From Stenotrophomonas maltophilia (GTDB lineage Bacteria; Pseudomonadota; Gammaproteobacteria; Xanthomonadales; Xanthomonadaceae), in the NCBI RefSeq assembly GCF_039555535.1, contig NZ_CP154630.1, positions 3,671,001 to 3,735,000 of the forward strand: 64,000 nucleotides of DNA, written 5' to 3'. A model generated the notes under the pieces. That model was given only the letters and a program-made list of their open reading frames with translations. It did not search any database and had not been told where the DNA came from. Both the position numbers and the translations under genes were made by a program. Positions 1,617-51,944 of this stretch are shown one piece after another (positions within the stretch are counted from its first letter, which is position 1; each line of letters starts with the position of its first letter).

Positions 1617-1720
1617 AGGCGGGGTGGATCCGGTTGCGGGAGACGCCGTAAACCCATCCATGGGGGCTTGGCCGCGGCATCCATGCCGCGGACACTCCCG
1701 CAACCGGACCCACCCCGCCT
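1617..1720 (+). repeat. Folded repeat unit A1 (variable stem, 52-bp core)
   Basis: Outer arms 1617-1642 and 1695-1720 pair at 25 of 26 positions. The enclosed core, 1643-1694, is 52 bp. It starts ACGCCGTAAA and contains a short hairpin around CCCATCCATGGG, then a strong hairpin CCGCGGCA-tcca-TGCCGCGG. Core length and loops match the other five units in this window; the arm sequence does not. Confidence 0.88.
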
Positions 1721-1863: not shown

Positions 1864-1967
1864 GGTGGGGCGGTGTGGGCTTGCAGGACCGTTGGCGCCA
1901 TGGATGGCGCCATCGAGCCCCCATGGACGGGTTTACGGCGTGTCCTGCAAGCCCACCCCGCCCCGCC
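1864..1967 (-). repeat. Folded repeat unit A2 (inverted relative to A1)
   Basis: Outer arms 1864-1889 and 1942-1967 pair at 24 of 26 positions. The 52-bp core (1890-1941) reads on the minus strand, beginning ACGCCGTAAACCCG. Its second hairpin is TGGCGCCA-tcca-TGGCGCCA. The arm sequence is unrelated to that of A1 although the two units share one intergenic gap. Confidence 0.88.
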
Positions 1968-5660: not shown

Positions 5661-8600
5661 TCAAGTTGTGGTCTGTCGTTGGGCGCGAGCCTGGATGATC
5701 GCTGCCACCAGCATGTCGCCGGTGACCGGCTTGCGCAGGAAACCATCGAAACCGGCAGCGAGCACCTGCGATTCGGCATAGGCATCGGAGCGGGCGGTCA
5801 CCGCCACCAGTGGCAGCTCGTAGCCCAGGGTGCGCAGCTGGCGGGCGATCGCAGTGCCGTCCAGCGCCGGCAGGTCGAGATCGAGCAGGCCAACATCGAA
5901 GCCGTCGGTGGCGATCTCCGACAAAGCCCCCAGGCCGTGCAGCACATGCACTACGTCATGGCCGCGGCTGCGCAGCAGGCCGGCGATGACCTCGGCCACG
6001 GTGGCATCGTCCTCCACCAGCAGGATGCGCAGTGGCGGCAGCACCGGCTGCGCAGGCGCTTCGCCCGCGGCGGCGGCGGCCTGCCGGGTCCAGGGCAGCG
6101 GCAACCGCACCCGGAAGCGCGCGCCCTTGCCTGGCTGGCTGTCCACTTCGATGCGCCCGCCCATGGCCGCGGCCAGCTCCTGGCAGATCGCCAGGCCCAG
6201 CCCGCTGCCGCCATAGCGCGAGGCCGTGCGCGGGCCCTCCGCCTGCTCGAATCGGTGGAACAGCCGCTCCTGCTGCTCGACATTGATACCCGGACCACTG
6301 TCGTGCACTTCGAAACAGAGACCGCCGCCGTACCTTTCCAGGTGCACGGCCAGGCCGACATGCCCGCGCTCGGTGAACTTGATCGCATTGCCCAGCAGGT
6401 TGAGCAGGATCTGCCGCACGCGCATCTCGTCGCCACTGACGCTGATCGGGCCGGGCGGATCGTCGCCACGCTGGAAATCCAGCTTGCGCTGTTTCGCCAT
6501 GGGCTGCATCAGCGCCTGCACCTGGTCGAGCAGGCCGGCCAGGTCGAACGGGCGCAGATCCAGCTCCAGCCGGCCCGCCTCGATGCGCGCGAGGTCCAAC
6601 GCATCGTTGACCAACCGCAGCAGATGGCTACCGGCCTGCTGGATGGAGCCGGCATAGCTGCGCTGCACCGGGTCCAGCGGTGTGGCCAGCAGCAGCTCGC
6701 TCATGCCCAGCACGCCGGTCATCGGCGTGCGCACTTCATGCCCCAGCGTGGCCAGGAACCGGCTCTTGGCCTGCGAGGCCTGTTCGGCCAGCTCCTGCTT
6801 GTGCACGGTCAGCTGCCATTGCTGGCGACGGCGCAGGCGCGCACGGATCGACCAGACCAGGATGAGCAGCAGCAGCGAACCGATCAGGATGTAGCCGAAG
6901 ATCGCCATGCCGCTGCGCCACCACGGTGGCAGCACCTTCACCTGCAGCTGCTGCGAAGGCATCCATGCACCATTGGCGGTGGCCGCCTGCACTTCGATGA
7001 CGTAACTGCCGGTGGGCAGTCGCGACAGCGTGCGCTGGCCGTCGCCGCCCTGCTCCACCCAGTTCTGGTCATACCCGCGTACCCGGAAGCGGTAGCGGTT
7101 GCCCTGTGGATTGGCATACGACAGCAGCCGCGCATCGATCTGCAGATCGCGATCATCCGGTCCCAGCAGCAGGGTGCCGGTGTTCGGCAGCGGCTGCCAG
7201 CCGCGTGCATCGTCGCGGCGCACGCGCACCTCGGCAATCACCAGCGAAGACCCGGGCAGCACCACGTCGTCGGCATTCACGTCGAAAGCGACCAGGCCGG
7301 TCTGGGCCACGGCCAGCACGCGGCCATCGGCATTCACCGCCGGCGGCCGGCTGGTGAATTCGGCATCGGACAGGCCATCGCGTTCATTGAACAACTGCAG
7401 GCGCCGGGCTTTCGGGTCCCAGCGCAGCAGGCCGCGCGGCGTGGTCGCCCACACCCGGCCATTGTCGGCCAATGCCAGGCCACCCATGCTGACCGGCGGC
7501 ACACCGGCGCTTCCATCAATGCGCTGGATCAGGCGCAGGCTCATGCCATCCCACTGGTAGCGCTCCAGCGCGCCCTGGCGGGCCAGCCACAGCTGCTGCG
7601 GATCCACCCACACCAGGTCGTAGATCAGCCCGCGCGAGACCCCCGGCACCGCTTCGAAGCGACCGGCCTGCTCACGCCAGATGCCCATGTCGCCCATCAC
7701 CCATGCCTTGCCATGGGCATCGAAGCGGATCTGCTCGATGGGTGAATCGGCCGCTTTGCGGAAATCCTCGAGTGGATAGCTGTGCAGCACCCGGCCATCC
7801 GCGCTGCGCTGCTGCAGGCCCAGGTTCATCACCGAAAGCCAGACCGTGCCATCGGGCGCCTGCCGCATCAGGTCGATGCGCTGGCGCAGGTCGGCGCCTC
7901 CATCGATATGCCAATCGTGCAGCGCGCGGGTGGCCGGGTCATACACGCTGATGCGGCCGGCACGCCCCAGCCACAGGCGCCCGTCCGGCCGCGGTAGTAC
8001 CGACCACACCGCACCGCTGCCGATCTCGCGGTCGCTGGCCAGCAGGCGCAGCGTGCCGTGCGCATCCAGCTGATACACGCCGTGCGCCGAACCCACGTAG
8101 TAGTTCTGGCCGTCACTCGCCGCGCCCAGCAGGTACTGGCTGTCCAGCGGCTTGCCATCGAGCTGGTTCCAGATCGAGAAGCGGCGCCAGTCCGGCGGCA
8201 GGTAGGCCAGCCCCTGGGTCAGCAGGGCCACCCACAGTCCGCCCTCGTGGTCCTGCAGCAGATCGAGCACACCGCTCTGTGCAGTGAGGAAACCACTGCC
8301 GCGGTCGCCATCGAGCCGCCACAGCGCACTTGCGTCGCCGCGCAGCAGGCCGTCGGACGTGCCCGCCCAGTAGCCGCCCTGGCGATCGGCCAGCACCAGT
8401 GCCGAGCGCAGGCGGGCGCTGTCGCTCCAGCGCGGACGACTGACCCGGTCCTGCGCATCGATGCGGTACAGGCCGTCGTTCTGGCTGCCGAGCCAGATCG
8501 AACCGTCCGGATCACGGCTCATCCTCAGCACGCTCAGCGCGCCCAGTTCGCGCGATGCCACCGGCTCGAAGCCAACGCCGTTCCAGCGCGCGACCCCGGC

Positions 8601-14183: not shown

Positions 14184-14262
14184 GTAGGGCCGAGCCCACG
14201 CTCGGCTCATACGGCAGGATGGGGATTCGGTCAGTAGCAGCCGAGCATGGGCTCGGCTCTAC
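14184..14262. repeat. SMAG dimer between convergent genes
   Basis: Two SMAG hairpins in opposite orientation are bounded by GTAG (14184) and CTAC (14262), with stems CCGAGCccacGCTCGG and CCGAGCatgGGCTCGG. This is the only content of the gap between the hydrolase and hom. Confidence 0.85.
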
Positions 14263-14275
14263 AAGAACCGTGCGA

Positions 14276-17603: not shown

Positions 17604-17682
17604 GGCGGGATCCGGTTGGGGAATCGGCCATCGAGCCTTCGCGGGGCTCGCGTTCGAGATGCACGTGCGGTGCATGGTTCGA

Positions 17683-17797
17683 ACCATCTTTCGGTGGACG
17701 CCACGGTCCCCGCAGGATTTGGCACCTACGCAGACGCTTTCGCATCCGCGGGCTGCCCCGGCTTCAAAGGGCCTGTCCCTCTGCCGGTCTCGATGGT
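17683..17797 (-). promoter_or_regulatory. SAM-I riboswitch (S-box) controlling metX-metB-hom
   Basis: Read on the minus strand, this leader carries the S-box elements in order: P1 arm ACCATC, then GACCGGCAGAGGGACAGGCC, CTTTGAAGCCGGGGCAGCCC, a GAAA-capped P3 hairpin (GCGGATGC-gaaa-GCGTCTGC), the conserved GGTGCCAAATCCTGC, a P4 hairpin, and CCGAAAGATGGT closing P1. It lies 79 bases upstream of metX. Known SAM-I aptamers switch off methionine genes when S-adenosylmethionine is high. A CGAGCC...GGCTCG stem at 17630-17649 follows without a U-run, so control may act on translation; this last point is inference. Confidence 0.93.
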
Positions 17798-17803
17798 GAC
17801 GCC

Positions 17804-20521: not shown

Positions 20522-20560
20522 GGGGTCGGATCCCTTTCCGCAGGAAAGGGCTCTGACCCC
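20522..20560. repeat. GGGTC-type palindromic repeat, copy 2
   Basis: GGGGTCGGATCCCTTTCC and GGAAAGGGCTCTGACCCC form a near-perfect stem around a short loop, seven bases after the prfC stop codon. It is the same family as 1752-1789 and 36973-37013. There is no U-run, so it is a repeat first and a terminator only possibly. Confidence 0.8.
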
Positions 20561-20692
20561 AGCACCCGTCGCCGGTTCATCCGTGCAACCCGGGGATTCA
20601 TCGACCATACGGTGACAGGCGTGCAGATGCCGCCCATCGCGGCGATGATAGGGGGGGTGCGGGTCCCCCTCCCCGCGAACGATGCCTACGCC

Positions 20693-23427: not shown

Positions 23428-23533
23428 GAGCCGGAGCAAGGCGACAGGCAGGACACGCCGTAAATACGTCCCTGTAGGCTCGGTCGGCGCATCCATGCGC
23501 CTCACGGTCCTGCCTGCCGCCTTGCTCCGGCTC
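23428..23533 (+). repeat. Folded repeat unit B1
   Basis: Arms 23428-23454 and 23507-23533 pair at 26 of 27 positions. The core, 23455-23506, is 52 bp, starts ACGCCGTAAATACG, and has hairpins TAC-gtccct-GTA and GGCGCA-tcca-TGCGCC. The first stem carries TAC/GTA where units A1, A2 and C2 carry CCC/GGG. Confidence 0.88.
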
Positions 23534-23682: not shown

Positions 23683-23786
23683 AGGCGGAGGGCATGGGCG
23701 TGCAGGACCGTTGGCGCCATGGATGGCGCCATCGAGCCTACAGGGACGTACTTGCGGCGTGTCCTGCACGCCCATGCCCTCCGCCT
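23683..23786 (-). repeat. Folded repeat unit B2 (inverted relative to B1)
   Basis: Arms 23683-23708 and 23761-23786 pair perfectly over 26 bp. The 52-bp core (23709-23760) reads on the minus strand from ACGCCGCAAGTACG, with second hairpin TGGCGCCA-tcca-TGGCGCCA. Confidence 0.9.
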
Positions 23787-32154: not shown

Positions 32155-33068
32155 TTACGTCCCCTACTCCCGCTGCGTTCCATGATCTTCGCCTGGAGGC
32201 CGCCCATGGCGCGCGCCTGGCTGCGACTGCCAGCGACCATGGCCGCCGTGGCCGGGTGCTGTTCGCGCATGGCTTCGGCCAGACCCGGCATGCCTGGAAC
32301 GCCACCGCGCGGGCCCTGTCTGCGGCGGGACTGCAGACATTGGCCTACGACGCTCGTGGCCACGGCGATTCGGACTGGAATGCCGCCGAACTGCCCTATC
32401 ACGGCGAACAGTTCGCTGATGACCTCATCGTGCTGGCCGGGGAACAGCCGCGCCCGCCGGTGCTGGTCGCAGCCTCGATGGGTGGCCTGTTCGGCCTGCT
32501 GGCCGAATCGCGCTGGCCGGGCCTGTTCTCGGCGATGGTGCTGGTGGACATCACCCCGCGCTGGGATACCGCCGGTGTTGAACGCATCCTGGCCTTCATG
32601 ACCGCCCATCCCGACGGCTTCGCCTCGCTCACCCAGGCCGCCGATGTGATCTCGGCCTACATGCCGCACCGTCCGCGCAAATCCGAGCAGTCGCTGCGCG
32701 CGCTGCTGCGCGAGGACGGCCAGGGCCGCTGGCGCTGGCACTGGGACCCGCGCCTGGTGGCCGAACTGGCGCGCGACAGCGAGCAGCACCAGGATGCGCT
32801 GGCCGAGGCCGCACGCCAGGTGAAATGCCCGCTGCTGCTGGTCAGCGGCGGCCGCAGCGACCTGGTCACGCCACAGACCGTGGCCGAATTCCTGGCGTTG
32901 GCGCCGCACGCGCGTCACGTACAGCTGCCGCAGGCCACGCACATGGTCGCCGGCGATGACAACGACGCCTTTACCGCTACTGTGTTGGACTATCTGGACG
33001 TGTTGCCCGCAGCGGATGCTGCGGCTTCGTCCGCCACAAACGAGCACGTCACCGGAGCACGCTCATGA
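32151..33068 (+). CDS. Alpha/beta hydrolase (esterase/thioesterase-like)
   Basis: 305 residues, cytoplasmic. Fold landmarks are VLFAHGFGQTRHAWNAT (oxyanion region), YDARGHGDSDW, the nucleophile elbow VAASMGGLFG (Ser in ASMGG, near residue 108), an acid in LVSGGRSDLVTP and the catalytic His in QATHMVAGDD. The elbow is A-S-M-G-G, not G-x-S-M-G, a tolerated variant. It is the first gene of a unit with fadE (four-base overlap) and a hotdog thioesterase-like gene, so its substrate is probably an acyl ester or acyl-CoA derivative. ATG 32151 is the only start after the promoter. Confidence 0.9.
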   Translation: MVTSPTPAAFHDLRLEAAHGARLAATASDHGRRGRVLFAHGFGQTRHAWNATARALSAAGLQTLAYDARGHGDSDWNAAELPYHGEQFADDLIVLAGEQPRPPVLVAASMGGLFGLLAESRWPGLFSAMVLVDITPRWDTAGVERILAFMTAHPDGFASLTQAADVISAYMPHRPRKSEQSLRALLREDGQGRWRWHWDPRLVAELARDSEQHQDALAEAARQVKCPLLLVSGGRSDLVTPQTVAEFLALAPHARHVQLPQATHMVAGDDNDAFTATVLDYLDVLPAADAAASSATNEHVTGARS

Positions 33069-35542
33069 GCATCGTTCTTCCCTTCCTCGCCCTGCTGCTG
33101 GCAGGCGCGTTCGTCGCCTACCACCGCATGCGGCTGGTTACCTGGACGCTGATCAGCGTGGCCCTGCTGGTCGCCTGCTGGTTCATCCCCTACGTCAACC
33201 AGACCGCCACGATCGTGGCTGCCGCCGTGTTGGCCGTCATCGCCGTGCCGCTGCTGCTGCCGTTCATCCGCAAGCCGCTGCTGACCGGCCCGATGATGAA
33301 GGTGTTCCGCAAGGTGCTGCCGCCGCTGTCGCAGACCGAGCGCATCGCGCTGGAAACCGGCTCGGTCGGCTTCGAGGGCGAGCTGTTCACCGGTGATCCG
33401 GACTGGAACATCCTGCTCAACTACCCCAAGCCGCAGCTGACCGCCGAAGAACAGGCCTTCCTCGATGGCCCGGTCGAAGAGCTGTGCACGATGGTCAACG
33501 ACTGGGAAATCACCCACGTCCACGCCGACCTGCCGCCGGAGCTGTGGGCCTTCATCAAGAAGAACAAGTTCTTCGGCATGATCATTCCGAAGGAATACGG
33601 CGGCCTGGGCTTCTCCGCGCTGGCCCACCACAAGGTGATCCAGAAGCTGGCCTCGGTGTCCTCGGTGGTCAGCTCCACCGTGGGCGTGCCGAACTCGCTG
33701 GGCCCGGGTGAACTGCTGGTGCACTACGGCACCCAGGAACAGAAGGACCAGTACCTGCCGCGCCTGGCCGATGGCCGCGAAGTGCCCTGCTTCGGCCTGA
33801 CCGGCCCGTTCGCCGGCTCCGACGCTACCTCGATTCCTGATTACGGCATCGTCTGCAAGGGCGAGTGGAACGGCGAGCAGGTGCTCGGCGTCAAGCTGAC
33901 CTTCGACAAGCGCTACATCACGCTGGCCCCGGTTGCCTCGCTGATCGGCCTGGCGTTCCGCATGTACGACCCGGATGGCCTGATCGGCGATACCCGCGAC
34001 ATCGGCATCACCCTGGGCCTGCTGCCGCGCGACACCGCCGGCGTTGAAATCGGCCGTCGCCACTTCCCGCTGAACTCGACGTTCCAGAACGGCCCGATCC
34101 GCGGCAAGGACGTGTTCATTCCGCTGACCCAGCTGATCGGTGGCGCTGCCATGGCCGGCAAGGGCTGGAACATGCTCAACGAGTGCCTGGCCGTGGGCCG
34201 CTCGATCACCCTGCCCTCCACTGCCAGCGGCGGCGCCAAGGCCGGTGCTGCCGTGACCGGCGCCTATGCACGCATCCGCAAGCAGTTCGGCCTGTCGGTC
34301 GGCCGCTTCGAGGGCGTGGAAGAAGCGCTGGCCCGCATCGGCGGCAAGGCGTACAAGATCAGCGCGCTGTCGCAGGCCACCGCTGCCGCCGTGGACCGCG
34401 GCGACGTGCCGTCGGTGCCGTCGGCGATCGCCAAGTACCACTGCACCAACATGAGCCGTGAAGTGATCTCGGACATGATGGACGTGATCGGCGGCAAGGG
34501 CATCATCCTGGGGCCGCGCAACTTCGCCGGCCGCAGCTGGCAGGCGGCGCCGATCGCGATCACCGTGGAAGGCGCCAACATCATGACCCGCAGCCTGCTG
34601 ATCTTCGGCCAGGGTGCGATCCTCTGCCACCCGTGGGTGCTGAAGGAAATGAAGGCGGCGCAGGATCCGGACACCCGTGCCGGCCTGCAGGAGTTCGACC
34701 GCAGCCTGTTCGGCCACATCCGCTTTGGCCTCTCCAATGCCGTGCGTTCGTTCTGGTTCGGCCTGACCGGCGCCCGCTTCGGTGCCGCCCCGGGCGATGC
34801 CTACACCCGCCGTTATTTCCGCAAGCTGGACCGCTATTCGGCCAATCTGGCGCTGATGGCCGACATCTCGATGATGACGCTTGGCGGCAAGCTGAAGTTC
34901 AAGGAATCGCTGTCCGGCCGCCTGGGCGATGTGCTGAGCCATGTCTACATGACCAGCGCCATGCTCAAGCGCTACCACGATGAAGGCGCACCGCAGGCCG
35001 ACCAGCCGCTGCTGGCCTGGGCCTTCCATGACAGCGTGCACAAGATCGAGGAATCGCTGTCGGCCGCCCTGCGCAACTTCCCGATCCGTCCGATCGGCTG
35101 GCTGATGTGGGCGCTGATCTTCCCGCTGGGCCGCCGTGCCGAGGCCCCGGGCGACCGCCTGAGCCGCCGCGTCGCCGCCCTGCTGATGGCGCCGAACGAA
35201 GCCCGCGACCGCCTGGCCAGTGGCGTGTTCCTGACCCCGTGCGAGAACAACCCGGGTGGCCGCATCAACAGCTACCTGAGCAAGGCGATCATGGCCGAGC
35301 CGGTGGAGCGCAAGTTCCTGAAGGCGCTGAAGAGCAAGGGCATCGAGGCGCTGGACTTCAAGGCACAGCTGGACGAAGCCGTGGCCGAGGGCGTGATCAC
35401 CCAGGACGAGCGCAGCCTGCTGGAAGAGCTGCGCACGCTGACCCTGGACACCATCACCGTGGACGACTTCGACACCCATGAACTACGTGCGGCCAGCTAC
35501 TACGACCGCCAGCACAAGGACCCGCATTCGCAGGCGGCCTGA
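33065..35542 (+). CDS. fadE: Acyl-CoA dehydrogenase FadE
   Basis: 825 residues, the long FadE type. It performs the first, FAD-dependent step of fatty-acid beta-oxidation. The N-terminus has membrane helices (VLPFLALLLAGAFVAYHRM and following), consistent with membrane association. The dehydrogenase core has FFGMIIPKEYGGLGFSALAH, FGLTGPFAGSDATSIPD, GKGIILGPRNFAGRSWQ and GANIMTRSLLIFGQG. A long C-terminal extension matches the DUF1974 region of FadE. Its ATG overlaps the hydrolase stop (ATGA), so translation is coupled. A strong hairpin follows at 35566-35591, before the third gene. Confidence 0.95.
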   Translation: MSIVLPFLALLLAGAFVAYHRMRLVTWTLISVALLVACWFIPYVNQTATIVAAAVLAVIAVPLLLPFIRKPLLTGPMMKVFRKVLPPLSQTERIALETGSVGFEGELFTGDPDWNILLNYPKPQLTAEEQAFLDGPVEELCTMVNDWEITHVHADLPPELWAFIKKNKFFGMIIPKEYGGLGFSALAHHKVIQKLASVSSVVSSTVGVPNSLGPGELLVHYGTQEQKDQYLPRLADGREVPCFGLTGPFAGSDATSIPDYGIVCKGEWNGEQVLGVKLTFDKRYITLAPVASLIGLAFRMYDPDGLIGDTRDIGITLGLLPRDTAGVEIGRRHFPLNSTFQNGPIRGKDVFIPLTQLIGGAAMAGKGWNMLNECLAVGRSITLPSTASGGAKAGAAVTGAYARIRKQFGLSVGRFEGVEEALARIGGKAYKISALSQATAAAVDRGDVPSVPSAIAKYHCTNMSREVISDMMDVIGGKGIILGPRNFAGRSWQAAPIAITVEGANIMTRSLLIFGQGAILCHPWVLKEMKAAQDPDTRAGLQEFDRSLFGHIRFGLSNAVRSFWFGLTGARFGAAPGDAYTRRYFRKLDRYSANLALMADISMMTLGGKLKFKESLSGRLGDVLSHVYMTSAMLKRYHDEGAPQADQPLLAWAFHDSVHKIEESLSAALRNFPIRPIGWLMWALIFPLGRRAEAPGDRLSRRVAALLMAPNEARDRLASGVFLTPCENNPGGRINSYLSKAIMAEPVERKFLKALKSKGIEALDFKAQLDEAVAEGVITQDERSLLEELRTLTLDTITVDDFDTHELRAASYYDRQHKDPHSQAA

Positions 35543-35618: not shown

Positions 35619-36086
35619 ATGTCCACGCCCCTGCTCTCGCTCTACCACCGGCTGCAACGCTGGCCTGCCGGCACCTGGCTGTTCTCACGCGCGGTGTGCT
35701 TCAAGGCGCCCTACTTCGCCAGCATCGCACCGCGCATCACCCGCCTGGAACACGGCCGCTGCGAGGGCACGCTGACCGACCGCCGCAGGGTACGCAACCA
35801 CATCGGCACGGTGCATGCGATCGCGATGTGCAACCTGGCCGAACTGACCGCTGGGTTGATGGTGGATGCATCACTGCCGAAGGGCATGCGCTGGATTCCG
35901 AAGGGCATGCAGGTGCAGTACCTGGCCAAGGCGCGCGGCACGCTGCAGGCGGTGGCGCTACCGGCGCAGCCGATCATGGCGGCGGCACAGGGCTATGCGT
36001 TGCCGGTGACGGTGAGCGTGCGCGACCGCGCGGGAACGGAGGTGTTCAGCGCGGTCATCGACATGTGGATGTCGCCGGCGAAGTAG
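35619..36086 (+). CDS. DUF4442 / hotdog-fold thioesterase-like protein
   Basis: 155 residues. The sequence fits the DUF4442 group of hotdog-fold proteins: a central helix-bearing segment HIGTVHAIAMCNLAELTAGL, then strands MQVQYLAKARGTLQAVAL and ALPVTVSVRDRAGTEVFSAV. Hotdog proteins of this type hydrolyse or bind acyl-CoA thioesters. Its place after an alpha/beta hydrolase and fadE supports a role in fatty-acid turnover. ATG 35619 follows the fadE hairpin. It converges on the DUF1304 gene across giant palindrome C. Confidence 0.85.
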   Translation: MSTPLLSLYHRLQRWPAGTWLFSRAVCFKAPYFASIAPRITRLEHGRCEGTLTDRRRVRNHIGTVHAIAMCNLAELTAGLMVDASLPKGMRWIPKGMQVQYLAKARGTLQAVALPAQPIMAAAQGYALPVTVSVRDRAGTEVFSAVIDMWMSPAK

Positions 36087-36150
36087 TGTGTTCCCGCGAA
36101 CGGCGCAGCCCCTCGTGGATGGGTCGCCAAATGCGGTTTATCGGCTGGGC

Positions 36151-36248
36151 CGGAGGGGTGAGGCCGGGCGGGGACGCCGCAAGTACGTCCGTGTAGGCTT
36201 AGCCGCGCCATCCATGGCGCGGATACCCCGCCCGGCCCCACCCCTCCG
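36151..36248 (+). repeat. Folded repeat unit C1
   Basis: Arms 36151-36173 and 36226-36248 pair at 22 of 23 positions. The 52-bp core (36174-36225) starts ACGCCGCAAGTACG and has hairpins TAC-gtccgt-GTA and CCGCGCCA-tcca-TGGCGCGG. Confidence 0.88.
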
Positions 36249-36317
36249 ACCTCTGACAGATCTCTGTGGCGTCCACCCACGCAAGAGAAAAAAGAAGAGC
36301 AAGAGCAAAAGCAGAAG

Positions 36318-36338
36318 CGGTCCGCCGGCCGCTTTTTT
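36318..36338 (+). terminator. Terminator-like hairpin at the centre of palindrome C
   Basis: AGCGG and CCGCT pair around TCCGCCGG and are followed by six T residues. It would end rightward transcription coming from the fadE operon. Confidence 0.6.
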
Positions 36339-36430
36339 CGTGCGCGCAGAACCCACGAGCGCAGCGACCCGCTGTTGCTCTTGATCTTCTCTTCTTCTCC
36401 GTGGGCTGGCCGCACACGGAACCTGTCAGG

Positions 36431-36534
36431 GGCCGGGCGGATGGGCTGGGCAGGGGTGTCCGCGGCATGGATGCCGCGGCCAAGCCCCCAAGGATGGGTT
36501 TACGGCGTCCCCTGCCCAGCCCATCCGCCCGGCC
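36431..36534 (-). repeat. Folded repeat unit C2 (inverted relative to C1)
   Basis: Arms 36431-36456 and 36509-36534 pair perfectly over 26 bp. The 52-bp core (36457-36508) reads on the minus strand from ACGCCGTAAACCC, with first hairpin CCCA-tcc-TTGGG and second CCGCGGCA-tcca-TGCCGCGG. Confidence 0.9.
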
Positions 36535-36592
36535 AAACCCACGACCCGCATTCCGCGGCCCACCCACGAGGGGCTGCGCCGTTGGCTGGAAA

Positions 36593-36943
36593 CTACGCCA
36601 CCGCGCGAAGAACCAGCGCCAGGATCGCCGGCACCGCCTGGATCATGAAAATGCGCCGGCTCACGCTGTACGCGCCATAACACCCCGCCACCACCACGCA
36701 CGCCAGCGAGAACGTCACCAGCGCCGGCTGGTCGATCACCAGCCCCACCACGATGCCCGCCGCCAGGAAGCCGTTGTACAAGCCCTGATTGGCCGCCAGC
36801 ACGCGCGTGGTCTCTGCCTTCTGCGGCGTGTTGCGGAACGTCTTCAGGCCCAGCGGACGGGTCCACAGGAACATCTCCAGCACCAGGAAGTAGACGTGCA
36901 GCAGGGCGACCAGCAGCGTCAGGGCGAGTGCGATCCAGTACAT
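36593..36943 (-). CDS. DUF1304 small membrane protein
   Basis: 116 residues with four membrane helices: ALALTLLVALLHVYFLVLEM, a region around GLYNGFLAAGIVVGLVI, LVTFSLACVVVAGCYGAYSV and IQAVPAILALVLRAVA. The segment MFLWTRPLGLKTF followed by NQGLYNGFLA is characteristic of the DUF1304 family. Its function is unknown. It is transcribed in the same direction as the transporter upstream, separated from it by 76 bp that hold a GGGTC palindrome. Confidence 0.9.
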   Translation of the reverse strand: MYWIALALTLLVALLHVYFLVLEMFLWTRPLGLKTFRNTPQKAETTRVLAANQGLYNGFLAAGIVVGLVIDQPALVTFSLACVVVAGCYGAYSVSRRIFMIQAVPAILALVLRAVA

Positions 36944-40088: not shown

Positions 40089-40096
40089 GTTGTTTC

Positions 40097-40165
40097 GTAG
40101 AGCCGAGCCGTGCTCGGCTGAGCGGAATTCTGGCGCAAGGCAGCCGAGCATCGGCTCGGCTCTAC
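40097..40165. repeat. SMAG dimer
   Basis: GTAG (40097) and CTAC (40165) bound two SMAG hairpins in inverted orientation, between the convergent serine hydrolase and SDR genes. Confidence 0.87.
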
Positions 40166-40177
40166 AGCTCCGCAGCG

Positions 40178-42064: not shown

Positions 42065-42571
42065 TTAGATCAGCGGCGCCGGGGTTGCCGGCAGAGCGAC
42101 CGGAGCGGCCTTCTTCTTGCGGGCGGCCGGCTTGCGCTTGGCAACCTTCTTCGCTGCCTTCTTCGGGGCAGCCTTCTTGGTGGCCTTCTTCGCGGTCTTC
42201 TTTACTGCCTTCTTGGCAGTCTTCTTGACGGCCTTCTTGGCAGTCGCCTTCTTGGCGACCTTCTTGGCAGGCTTGCGGGCCGTTGCCTTCTTGGCAGTCT
42301 TCTTGGTGGCCTTCTTGACGGCCTTCTTCGCGGTCTTCTTGACAGCCTTCTTGGCAGTGGACTTCTTGGCTACCTTCTTTGCCGCCTTCTTCACTGCCTT
42401 CTTCGCAGTGGCCTTCTTGGCGACCTTCTTCGCAGCCTTCTTCACTGCCTTCTTGGCGGTCGCCTTCTTCGCGACCTTCTTCACTGCCTTCTTGGCAGCG
42501 GCCTTCTTCGCGACCTTCTTCACCGCTTTCTTGGCGGCGGGCTTCTTCTTCGCAGCTTTCTTGGTTGCCAT
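42065..42571 (-). CDS. Histone H1-like Lys/Ala-rich DNA-binding protein
   Basis: 168 residues made almost entirely of tandem KKAxAKKAVKKxAKK repeats, like the C-terminal tail of eukaryotic H1 and bacterial HC2/AlgP-type proteins. It has no globular domain and is predicted to be strongly basic and disordered, ending VALPATPAPLI. Such proteins coat DNA, condense the nucleoid and influence transcription. AGGAG seven bases before ATG 42571 decides the start. The repeated DNA makes length variation between strains likely. A long upstream region with its own promoter precedes it. Confidence 0.9.
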   Translation of the reverse strand: MATKKAAKKKPAAKKAVKKVAKKAAAKKAVKKVAKKATAKKAVKKAAKKVAKKATAKKAVKKAAKKVAKKSTAKKAVKKTAKKAVKKATKKTAKKATARKPAKKVAKKATAKKAVKKTAKKAVKKTAKKATKKAAPKKAAKKVAKRKPAARKKKAAPVALPATPAPLI

Positions 42572-44947: not shown

Positions 44948-45033
44948 GACCGGGTCCGGCAGCAGAGGAAACAAGAATCCCCATTATCCCAGATCGGTCG
45001 CCCGCAGGCGCGCCGCAGCGCAGCGGCGGAGCT

Positions 45034-45095
45034 GTAGAGCCGAGCCTACGCTCGGCTCCCACACGAAGAGCAGCCGAGCATGGGCTCGGCTCTAC
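45034..45095. repeat. SMAG dimer overlapping the end of nfeD
   Basis: Inverted SMAG hairpins are bounded by GTAG (45034) and CTAC (45092-45095 region). The terminal CTA is the nfeD stop codon read on the minus strand (GTG TAG). Confidence 0.85.
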
Positions 45096-45535
45096 ACGGG
45101 GCGGTCTGCCACCTCGACCACCAGCGTGCTGCCCCGTACCGCCACCACCCGCACCAGGCTGCCGGCCTGCAGTTCCGGGCCGCTTACCTGCCAGTACGCA
45201 TCATCGATGCTGACCCGGCCCTGCCCGCCGACGATGCCCTGCTGCAATGGCACCACCCGTCCGACCAGCTGCTCGGCGCGGCGGTTGAGCAACGGTGCAT
45301 CGCTGGGTCGCGCCCTTGCCTTGCCCCAGCGCCGGTAGCACTGGATCGAGACCACGCTCAGCACGACGAAGGCAACGACCTGCCACAGCAATGGAATGCC
45401 GCTGAACACGGCCACCAGCACGAACACGGCGGCCGCGCCGATGCCGATCCACAGCATGAACGCGCCCGGCGCCAGTGCCTCTGCGGCAAACAGCAGCAGT
45501 GCCAGCGCGCCCCAGCCCACGACCTCCCAGCGCAT
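45092..45535 (-). CDS. NfeD family membrane protein
   Basis: 147 residues: membrane helices in WGALALLLFAAEALAPGAFML and IGIGAAAVFVLVAVFSGIPL, then VVAFVVLSVVSIQCY, followed by a soluble OB-fold (LVGRVVPLQQGIVGGQGRVSIDDAYWQV to VVAVRGSTLVVEVA). NfeD proteins partner with SPFH/stomatin proteins, and here the SPFH gene ends one base before it. Together they are thought to organise membrane microdomains or aid protein quality control. The stop codon lies inside a SMAG repeat. Confidence 0.93.
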   Translation of the reverse strand: MRWEVVGWGALALLLFAAEALAPGAFMLWIGIGAAAVFVLVAVFSGIPLLWQVVAFVVLSVVSIQCYRRWGKARARPSDAPLLNRRAEQLVGRVVPLQQGIVGGQGRVSIDDAYWQVSGPELQAGSLVRVVAVRGSTLVVEVADRPV

Positions 45536-51755: not shown

Positions 51756-51944
51756 GTAGTGCCGGCCGCTGGCCGGCATCCACGGGATCATGCGGTTGCC
51801 GGCCAGCGGCCGGCACTACCGCGACCAGCGCGTCCAAGGCAGCAGCCGAGCGTGGGCTCGGCTCTACAGGGCCGGCGCCAGATTGCAGTTTCCTTGTGGA
51901 GCCGAGCCATGCTTGGCTCGGTGCCGGCCAGCGGCCGGCACTAC
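51756..51944. repeat. Cluster of REP/SMAG palindromes
   Basis: Three kinds stand together. 51756-51819 is bounded by GTAG/CTAC with GCCGGCCGCTGGCCGGC stems. 51841-51867 is a SMAG half-dimer ending GGCTCGGCTCTAC. 51896-51944 joins a GTGGAGCCGAGC hairpin to another GCCGGCCAGCGGCCGGC stem. They fill the 213-bp gap between convergent rsmE and chpC. Confidence 0.82.

Follow-up and report, generated by a model that had tools for sequence, protein, structure and literature searches.

A three-way-junction repeat dispersed in many copies between the genes of Gammaproteobacteria, with a predicted CsrA/RsmA site

Introduction

The window analysed here, a 64,000-nucleotide stretch of Stenotrophomonas maltophilia DNA (G000:C1:3671001-3735000, from a one-contig genome of 4.83 Mb), contains six units in which long outer arms of copy-specific sequence pair almost perfectly around a core of constant length. 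This arrangement raises the questions of what the units are, which of the two strands carries the constrained fold, and how long stems stay paired while their sequence turns over.

Results

Six units of one architecture

An initial annotation of the window had located six such units, counted their paired arm positions and given their core as 52 nt. Our analysis returned the same coordinates and arm counts, and the core is exactly 52 nt in 6/6 units. The features are as follows; the strand of a unit is the one on which its hairpin loops read GGA.

36431–36534, plus strand (GGA-loop, or TwoAYGGAY, strand): focal unit, arms paired at 26/26, core 36457–36508
36466–36473, plus strand: GGA loop of hairpin 2 of the focal unit, CANGGAYG
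36489–36496, plus strand: GGA loop of hairpin 1 of the focal unit, CANGGAYG
36151–36248, minus strand (GGA-loop strand): inverted partner of the focal unit, arms 22/23, core 36174–36225
36085–36600, no strand: composite of the inverted unit pair and outer inverted repeats of the AACGGCGCAGCCCCTCGTGG type, between convergent gene calls
35619–36086 (plus) and 36593–36943 (minus): the convergent gene calls around this composite, from a home-made gene caller
1617–1720, minus strand (GGA-loop strand): unit, arms 25/26, core 1643–1694
1864–1967, plus strand (GGA-loop strand): inverted partner of the 1617 unit, arms 24/26, core 1890–1941
23428–23533, minus strand (GGA-loop strand): unit, arms 26/27, core 23455–23506
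23683–23786, plus strand (GGA-loop strand): inverted partner of the 23428 unit, arms 26/26, core 23709–23760

Within the core, we recovered the variable stem of hairpin 2 around a retained TCCA loop and the exchange of CCC/GGG for TAC/GTA in hairpin 1, both of which had been annotated. The GGA loops of the two hairpins lie 23 nt apart in the window units. The statement that the arm sequences differ completely was correct as to a difference from copy to copy, the inner 22 arm bases agreeing at 9–17 of 22 among the six, and overstated as to its extent. Across the own genome, 103/122 arms fall into three single-linkage clusters (18 or more of 22 bases shared, so chained), 19 are singletons, and one inner-22 arm sequence is found 13 times exactly. 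The annotation had read the units on the strand with TCC loops; the Rfam TwoAYGGAY family and a mismatch bias, both described below, indicate the opposite, GGA-loop strand.

The three-way-junction fold covaries within one genome and across seven

For alignment, the units were oriented on the TCC strand (ACGCCGTAAA...), and 30 of them, the six window units and 24 of 30 fetched loci, were aligned without gaps; loci L083, L086, L089, L103, L104 and L108 stayed outside because they were odd, interrupted or false, carried an insertion, or had just not been included. The consensus fold of these 30 units is composed of a basal stem, a helix at 15–17/35–37, a 5-nt bulge and a helix at 23–25/32–34 with the loop RTCCNT, followed on the side of hairpin 2 by a helix at 39–49/54–64 with a purine-purine mismatch and the loop ATCCAT. 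In three loci, L086 and L089 (both around 1500) and L007 (about 7145–7225), hairpin 2 is interrupted by a second hairpin element of the CTTGCTCGTGTGCGC... type.

In this own-genome alignment (29 distinct sequences), 97.5% of 812 cells pair, both sides change in 19/28 pairs, the covariation score was reached by 0/500 shuffles, and structures slid along the alignment pair at 37–47%. A set of 42 units from seven genomes behaves similarly: 97.3% of 1176 cells pair, both sides change in 24/28 pairs, a stem position shows as many as four pair types, and 0/500 shuffles reached the covariation score. Two other measures on this set were matched more often, the number of pairs changed on both sides by 6/500 shuffles and that of further pair types by 353/500. 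A tree-aware null, home-made and crude (FastTree, columns simulated independently, 200 runs), gave a covariation score of at most 0.074 against the observed 0.811, so that covariation exceeds this phylogenetic expectation. Arm pairing also holds in the other copies, with 3031/3174 arm pairs being Watson-Crick in 123 own-genome units, counted after 18/141 with a match length other than 76 had been left out. The conserved three-way junction with nearly invariant loops that the initial annotation had proposed is thus borne out. The basal stem is mostly 22–34 bp long and differs in sequence between many copies and between genomes; the two-hairpin core spans 51–55 nt across genomes, with the single exception of an interrupted core of 100. 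Each unit is one member of an intergenic repeat that occurs in high copy number in Gammaproteobacteria and has this fold.

Copies and their setting in the own genome

A model built from the 30-unit alignment, R1, matches the own genome at least 141 times (E <= 0.01; 150 of 6239 first-look candidates scored). These matches form 93 sites: 45 pairs, 25 '+' singles, 22 '-' singles and one '+-+-' site. The order is '+ then -' in 45/45 two-copy sites, with a spacing of 155–291 bp in 44 and of 893 bp in one. Placement is intergenic, 1/141 units overlapping a call of our home-made gene caller. Among the 47 singles, 15 lie between convergent genes, four between divergent and 28 between codirectional genes, the latter split into 14 sense and 14 antisense. 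No clear replication-strand bias was detected in these singles (20 vs 27, the origin being assumed at 0). A unit-free gap of 484 kb (G000:C1:2160283-2644811, 2.16–2.64 Mb; simulated p 0.006 for a gap so large) lies near the point opposite coordinate 0 and perhaps marks the replication terminus region.

Inspected by eye, the own-genome units are parts of larger composites that are often symmetrical, and two classes can be told apart. In one, the unit is preceded by a CAGGGCTGCGCCCTG hairpin, GCAACG-type repeats and GGCATTCCGTGGGAT and followed by CGACAGNTTCC and a SMAG-like REP; in the other, it is preceded by CGGCGCAGCCCCTCGTGG and followed by CCACGGAAAAGAAAAAG. SMAG-like REP hairpins of the AGCCGAGCATGGGCTCGGCT type, single and in inverted pairs, also occur at window positions 14236–14266, 40096–40169, 45026–45099 and 51841–51927. 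Another small repeated hairpin, GGGTCGGATCCC...GGGCTCTGACCCC, is present at 1752–1790 and 20523–20561 and after several single units.

Spread, empty sites and turnover of the arms

At E <= 1e-4, R1 has matches in 28/143 genomes of the class Gammaproteobacteria and in 15/200 genomes sampled from the phylum, each of the 15 belonging to the own class (own genome counted in both); copy numbers per genome are lower bounds, 33 (class) and 24 (phylum) candidates having been scored in each. From 100 fetched loci we obtained 121 units and analysed 120, leaving out L358 of G206. The core is common to many Gammaproteobacteria and stands on unrelated arms. The plasmid and phage collections gave no match to a 76-nt core query. 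In L393 (2001–3213), six units in one orientation form a tandem array with a spacing of about 227 bp.

Within the genus, units were present in 16/29 scanned loci, and 11 empty orthologous sites were fetched, nine at the 23428 site and two at the 1617 site. These have 32–92 bp and no unit between the query flanks, against 530–540 bp with a pair in the window. Some unit-free orthologous places carry a short hairpin and others none. At site L343, a GC-rich hairpin folds at the place of the unit in 6/8 fetched relatives without a unit, and the hairpins of L406 and L400 resemble outer arms. The unit-free sites fit either course of events, a unit entering a hairpin or a unit decaying.

Arm length is nearly uniform in genome G083 (22/24 arms of exactly 31 bp), and in G309 the units L342 and L343 have an identical core on unrelated perfect arms of 29 and 32 bp. 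Among orthologues of site L341, both arms have changed together (GGAACC/GGTTCC vs GGCACC/GGTGCC), which indicates that pairing was restored in place. Other strains also have the pair at the focal locus, with one or both of its units standing on very different arms, which indicates that whole units were exchanged. Conservation also varies by site. At an orthologous site in five genomes of a distant genus, the core differs by 1.3%, the arms by 3.6–7.1%, the coding flanks by 12–14% and the upstream intergenic stretch by 39%; the 25 bases downstream are conserved as well (4.8%). With a difference of 6.9% in the core and of 7.8 and 1.7% in the arms, unit 1 of the focal S. maltophilia locus scarcely exceeds its outer flank (8.2%) in conservation, and unit 2 is more divergent still (20%). 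None of the 36 usable pairs had mates sharing at least 90% of their inner 22 arm bases, against 3.2 expected (p 0.027); this shortage of like-armed mates is suggestive of avoidance of long palindromes.

The units resemble two Rfam families on opposite strands

The TwoAYGGAY model (RF01731) matches the own genome at least 12 times (E <= 0.01; 92 of 302 first-look candidates scored), once over its cut-off of 43 (44.0 bits), and 12/12 scored matches fall on R1 units, on the strand opposite to that of the initial annotation. Of 17 element-bearing genomes, eight have matches at E <= 0.01 and four over the cut-off, which was exceeded in 0/14 control genomes. The focal unit scores 31.6 bits (G000:3707424-3707541:+), below the cut-off, and 22.0 bits in a 136-nt cut; a 151-nt cut around the 44.0-bit unit gave nothing at the gathering threshold, so that passing depends on the stretch scanned. 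In the 44.0-bit alignment, both AUGGAU loops and the long stem are in register. The units have the TwoAYGGAY arrangement of a long stem with two same-strand GGA-loop hairpins, and they agree with the family in junction and strand. Strict AYGGAY is found in the hairpin 1 loop of 57/123 own-genome units and in the hairpin 2 loop of 117/123. Helix 4 contains a tandem T-C/C-T mismatch in 34–36 of 123 units, which is a tandem G-A on the GGA strand; PMC4333381 states tandem G-A as a TwoAYGGAY feature and describes the family as one of unknown function. The units differ from TwoAYGGAY in that nearly all scored copies lie below the cut-off, the N of the hairpin 1 loop is free, and the copies are a dispersed repeat, arranged in part as inverted pairs, whose stems vary from copy to copy.

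On the TCC strand, the consensus of Rfam Ysr224 (RF02770) contains the unit core, the Rfam model having other outer stems. Its best score was 41.0 against a cut-off of 70; 9/94 class genomes, the own included, match at E <= 1e-4, and none does so over the cut-off. Ysr224 goes by the name of a Yersinia sRNA and is counted among the most prevalent sRNAs in PMC9029176, and multi-copy Ysr224 transcripts are reported for Y. ruckeri. Most Rfam matches at the units are to microRNA hairpin models, which score far below their cut-offs and were rejected.

Judged by sequence and predicted structure, the units probably belong with TwoAYGGAY on one strand and with Ysr224 on the other, and the two Rfam families seem to represent opposite strands of a single dispersed repeat. 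In the portions available of the literature listed under the two names (PMC2864571, PMC4333381, PMC9029176 and PMC12112432 among it), we found no paper under both, and no paper, judged mostly from listings, was recognised as describing this repeat. New here are its dispersed nature with exchangeable stems, the fixed pair order and the strand signature. For matches to either family, copy counts would be repeat counts, and the strand would matter.

Twin GGA loops and a strand-specific mismatch bias

On the GGA strand, both loops of 116/123 units contain CANGGAYG, a CsrA/RsmA-like motif that corresponds to the CsrA/RsmA consensus. These 116 units have GGA-loop hairpins in pairs, a feature of CsrA-binding regulatory RNA. 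The 64-kb window contains this motif 37 times, 12 of them within the six units and all 12 on the GGA strand. In the hairpin 1 loop of own-genome units, GGA is fixed and N variable; in other genomes N varies in both loops (a count that presupposes TCC, which fits 118/120 units). Clan CL00106, which is shown for TwoAYGGAY, is the clan of CsrA-binding RNAs. PMC4333381 describes GGA loops in pairs, and TwoAYGGAY is among the families in which Gardner and colleagues detected the CsrA motif (PMC4333381).

Among mismatches, G-U and purine-purine are the kinds that hairpins of RNA or single-stranded DNA tolerate better. On the GGA strand, the arms of 243 units from ten genomes contain 188 G-U against 84 A-C mismatches, nine genomes leaning this way and one being tied. 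In the inner 20 arm pairs, the ratios are 111:25 for G-U against A-C and 61:18 for purine-purine against pyrimidine-pyrimidine. Both R1 and the scoring of the arms prefer G-T on the TCC strand, and detection would therefore tend to weaken the observed bias. The copies are not independent and the counts have no control hairpin family; the pooled p of 2.6e-10 is given no weight. When full arms were counted on units from an earlier finder, almost no bias was seen in G089 (19:17), and G083 gave 23:12.

The bias was also broken down by gene orientation. At units whose GGA strand runs antisense to the genes on both sides, G-U exceeds A-C by 76:20 outside the own genome and 17:3 within it, and the lean is significant in this orientation only. 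Where the GGA strand is sense, it is 22:13 (p 0.18) outside and 15:11 (p 0.56) within the own genome, not significant in either. Selection on the mRNA of the neighbouring genes would therefore not be expected to produce this bias, which reaches significance in one of the two orientations. A mutational strand bias may also account for the G-U lean.

A csrA gene was found in 38/41 element-positive genomes, the three without it being 67–88% complete, and in 31/36 element-free genomes, four of the five without it being over 90% complete. This distribution is weakly compatible with a role for CsrA.

Discussion

Our preferred reading, held tentatively and at somewhat less than an even chance, is that the units are a dispersed TwoAYGGAY-type structure with a predicted CsrA/RsmA site, whose GGA-strand fold is selected. 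The constrained molecule would be RNA (or single-stranded DNA) of the GGA strand, with the twin loops of a unit as a candidate site for one CsrA/RsmA dimer. Copies would come and go as intergenic insertions, and an inverted pair would place one GGA-strand unit on any read-through transcript, in either direction. The stems might stay paired through selection on GGA-strand pairing together with exchange of units between loci, and perhaps template switching. As in CsrB/RsmY-type RNAs, GGA stands in hairpin loops and in pairs; unlike them, the units have two sites each, more than 100 dispersed copies and no terminator. Several observations count against this reading: the GGA strand shows no preference for the sense orientation, the mismatch bias is significant in a single gene orientation, Rfam models Ysr224 on the TCC strand and multi-copy Ysr224 transcripts are reported in Y. 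ruckeri, only one scored own-genome unit exceeds the TwoAYGGAY cut-off, the focal S. maltophilia locus does not show the strong unit conservation seen at the distant-genus site, and csrA is also present in 31/36 element-free genomes.

The units could instead be a mobile or selfish element without coding capacity, similar to MITEs or REPs, whose insertions fall close to the 3' ends of genes, whose arms are kept perfect by template-switch correction in extruded hairpins and which has no RNA function. Their patchy presence across genomes, the 11 empty orthologous sites, the intergenic placement and the identical cores on unrelated arms of L342 and L343 all agree with such an element, and template switching is described in PMC8794818 as a source of hairpins and a means of their maintenance. 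Neutral repair, however, gives no reason for the excess of G-U over A-C on one strand, nor does it account for an invariant GGA beside a free N in the loops, and a search that covered Y1 transposases found no transposase; we consider this explanation somewhat unlikely. A separate proposal is that the repeat is a REP/BIME element moved by a RAYT Y1 transposase, a protein which the initial annotation had suggested looking for. The inverted pairs, high copy number and intergenic placement agree with it, and SMAG-like REPs adjoin many units (by eye). Like SMAG/REP elements and REPINs, the units are intergenic palindromes often found in inverted pairs, but they measure about 104 bp against 20–40 bp, have a two-hairpin core and, by eye, lack the GTAG foot of the published SMAG consensus. 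Among the Y1 matches in element-bearing genomes (E <= 1e-5; 30 of 33 listed matches examined, 3 kb per locus), 0/30 loci contain a unit, so that a RAYT gene flanked by copies was not found, and 5/17 element genomes have no Y1 match at this threshold. The RAYT link is already contradicted, and we regard it as very improbable.

A third explanation places the function on the other strand, as a Ysr224-like TCC-strand mRNA hairpin at 3' ends or between cistrons that acts as an exonuclease block, an RNase III cut site or a stand-in for a terminator. Many units lie close behind stop codons, Ysr224 itself is modelled on the TCC strand, and the hairpins of the L343 relatives fit this proposal. Sense:antisense counts of the TCC strand at codirectional sites are 19:1 in G083 (18:2 with another caller), 5:1 in G155, 9:0 in G328 (6/9 from one array), 9:6 in G309, 6:3 in G257 and 2:0 in G101. 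Genomes disagree, however, with no such preference in the own-genome singles (14:14), G089 (5:8), G079 (1:4) or G134 (2:2), and a sense-strand 3'UTR element as a general rule was rejected. An RNA helix of the TCC strand would be expected to show the reverse of the observed mismatch bias. There is no T-run: TTTT within 12 nt occurs in 8/123 units on the TCC strand and in 0/123 on the GGA strand, and an intrinsic terminator was rejected on these counts. As the mismatch bias reaches significance in just one of the gene orientations, we lowered our confidence in the CsrA reading and raised that in the TCC-strand hairpin, which we nonetheless judge to be unlikely.

Returning to the preferred GGA-strand reading, paired arm changes in place are what template switching would give, and the strand-specific mismatch bias points to selection on a fold of one strand; selection on the GGA-strand helix, template switching and whole-unit exchange may all take part in keeping the arms paired. 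The repeat would thereby offer a natural test bed for the persistence of long perfect stems during sequence turnover. A bolder extension, which we find quite unlikely, is a dispersed CsrA/RsmA docking system with more than 100 chromosomal copies per genome at gene ends, whose core moves between, or is copied into, existing hairpins and whose stems are rebuilt from local sequence. If so, twin-site hairpins would recruit CsrA to transcripts or sequester it by titration across many Gammaproteobacteria.

Other features of the window

A FadE-type acyl-CoA dehydrogenase is encoded near the focal unit (33065–35542), with 98–100% identity to records of the S. maltophilia complex (L001–L016 and L041). 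A Stenotrophomonas-type FadE (94%) also occurs in L024, a record titled Bacillus subtilis SK7B5 that is possibly mislabelled or contaminated. We further identified a SAM riboswitch at 17681–17799 on the minus strand (RF00162, 74.5 bits) and, within a predicted coding sequence at 42137–42549, a repeat array with a 12-nt period and 22 copies in register.
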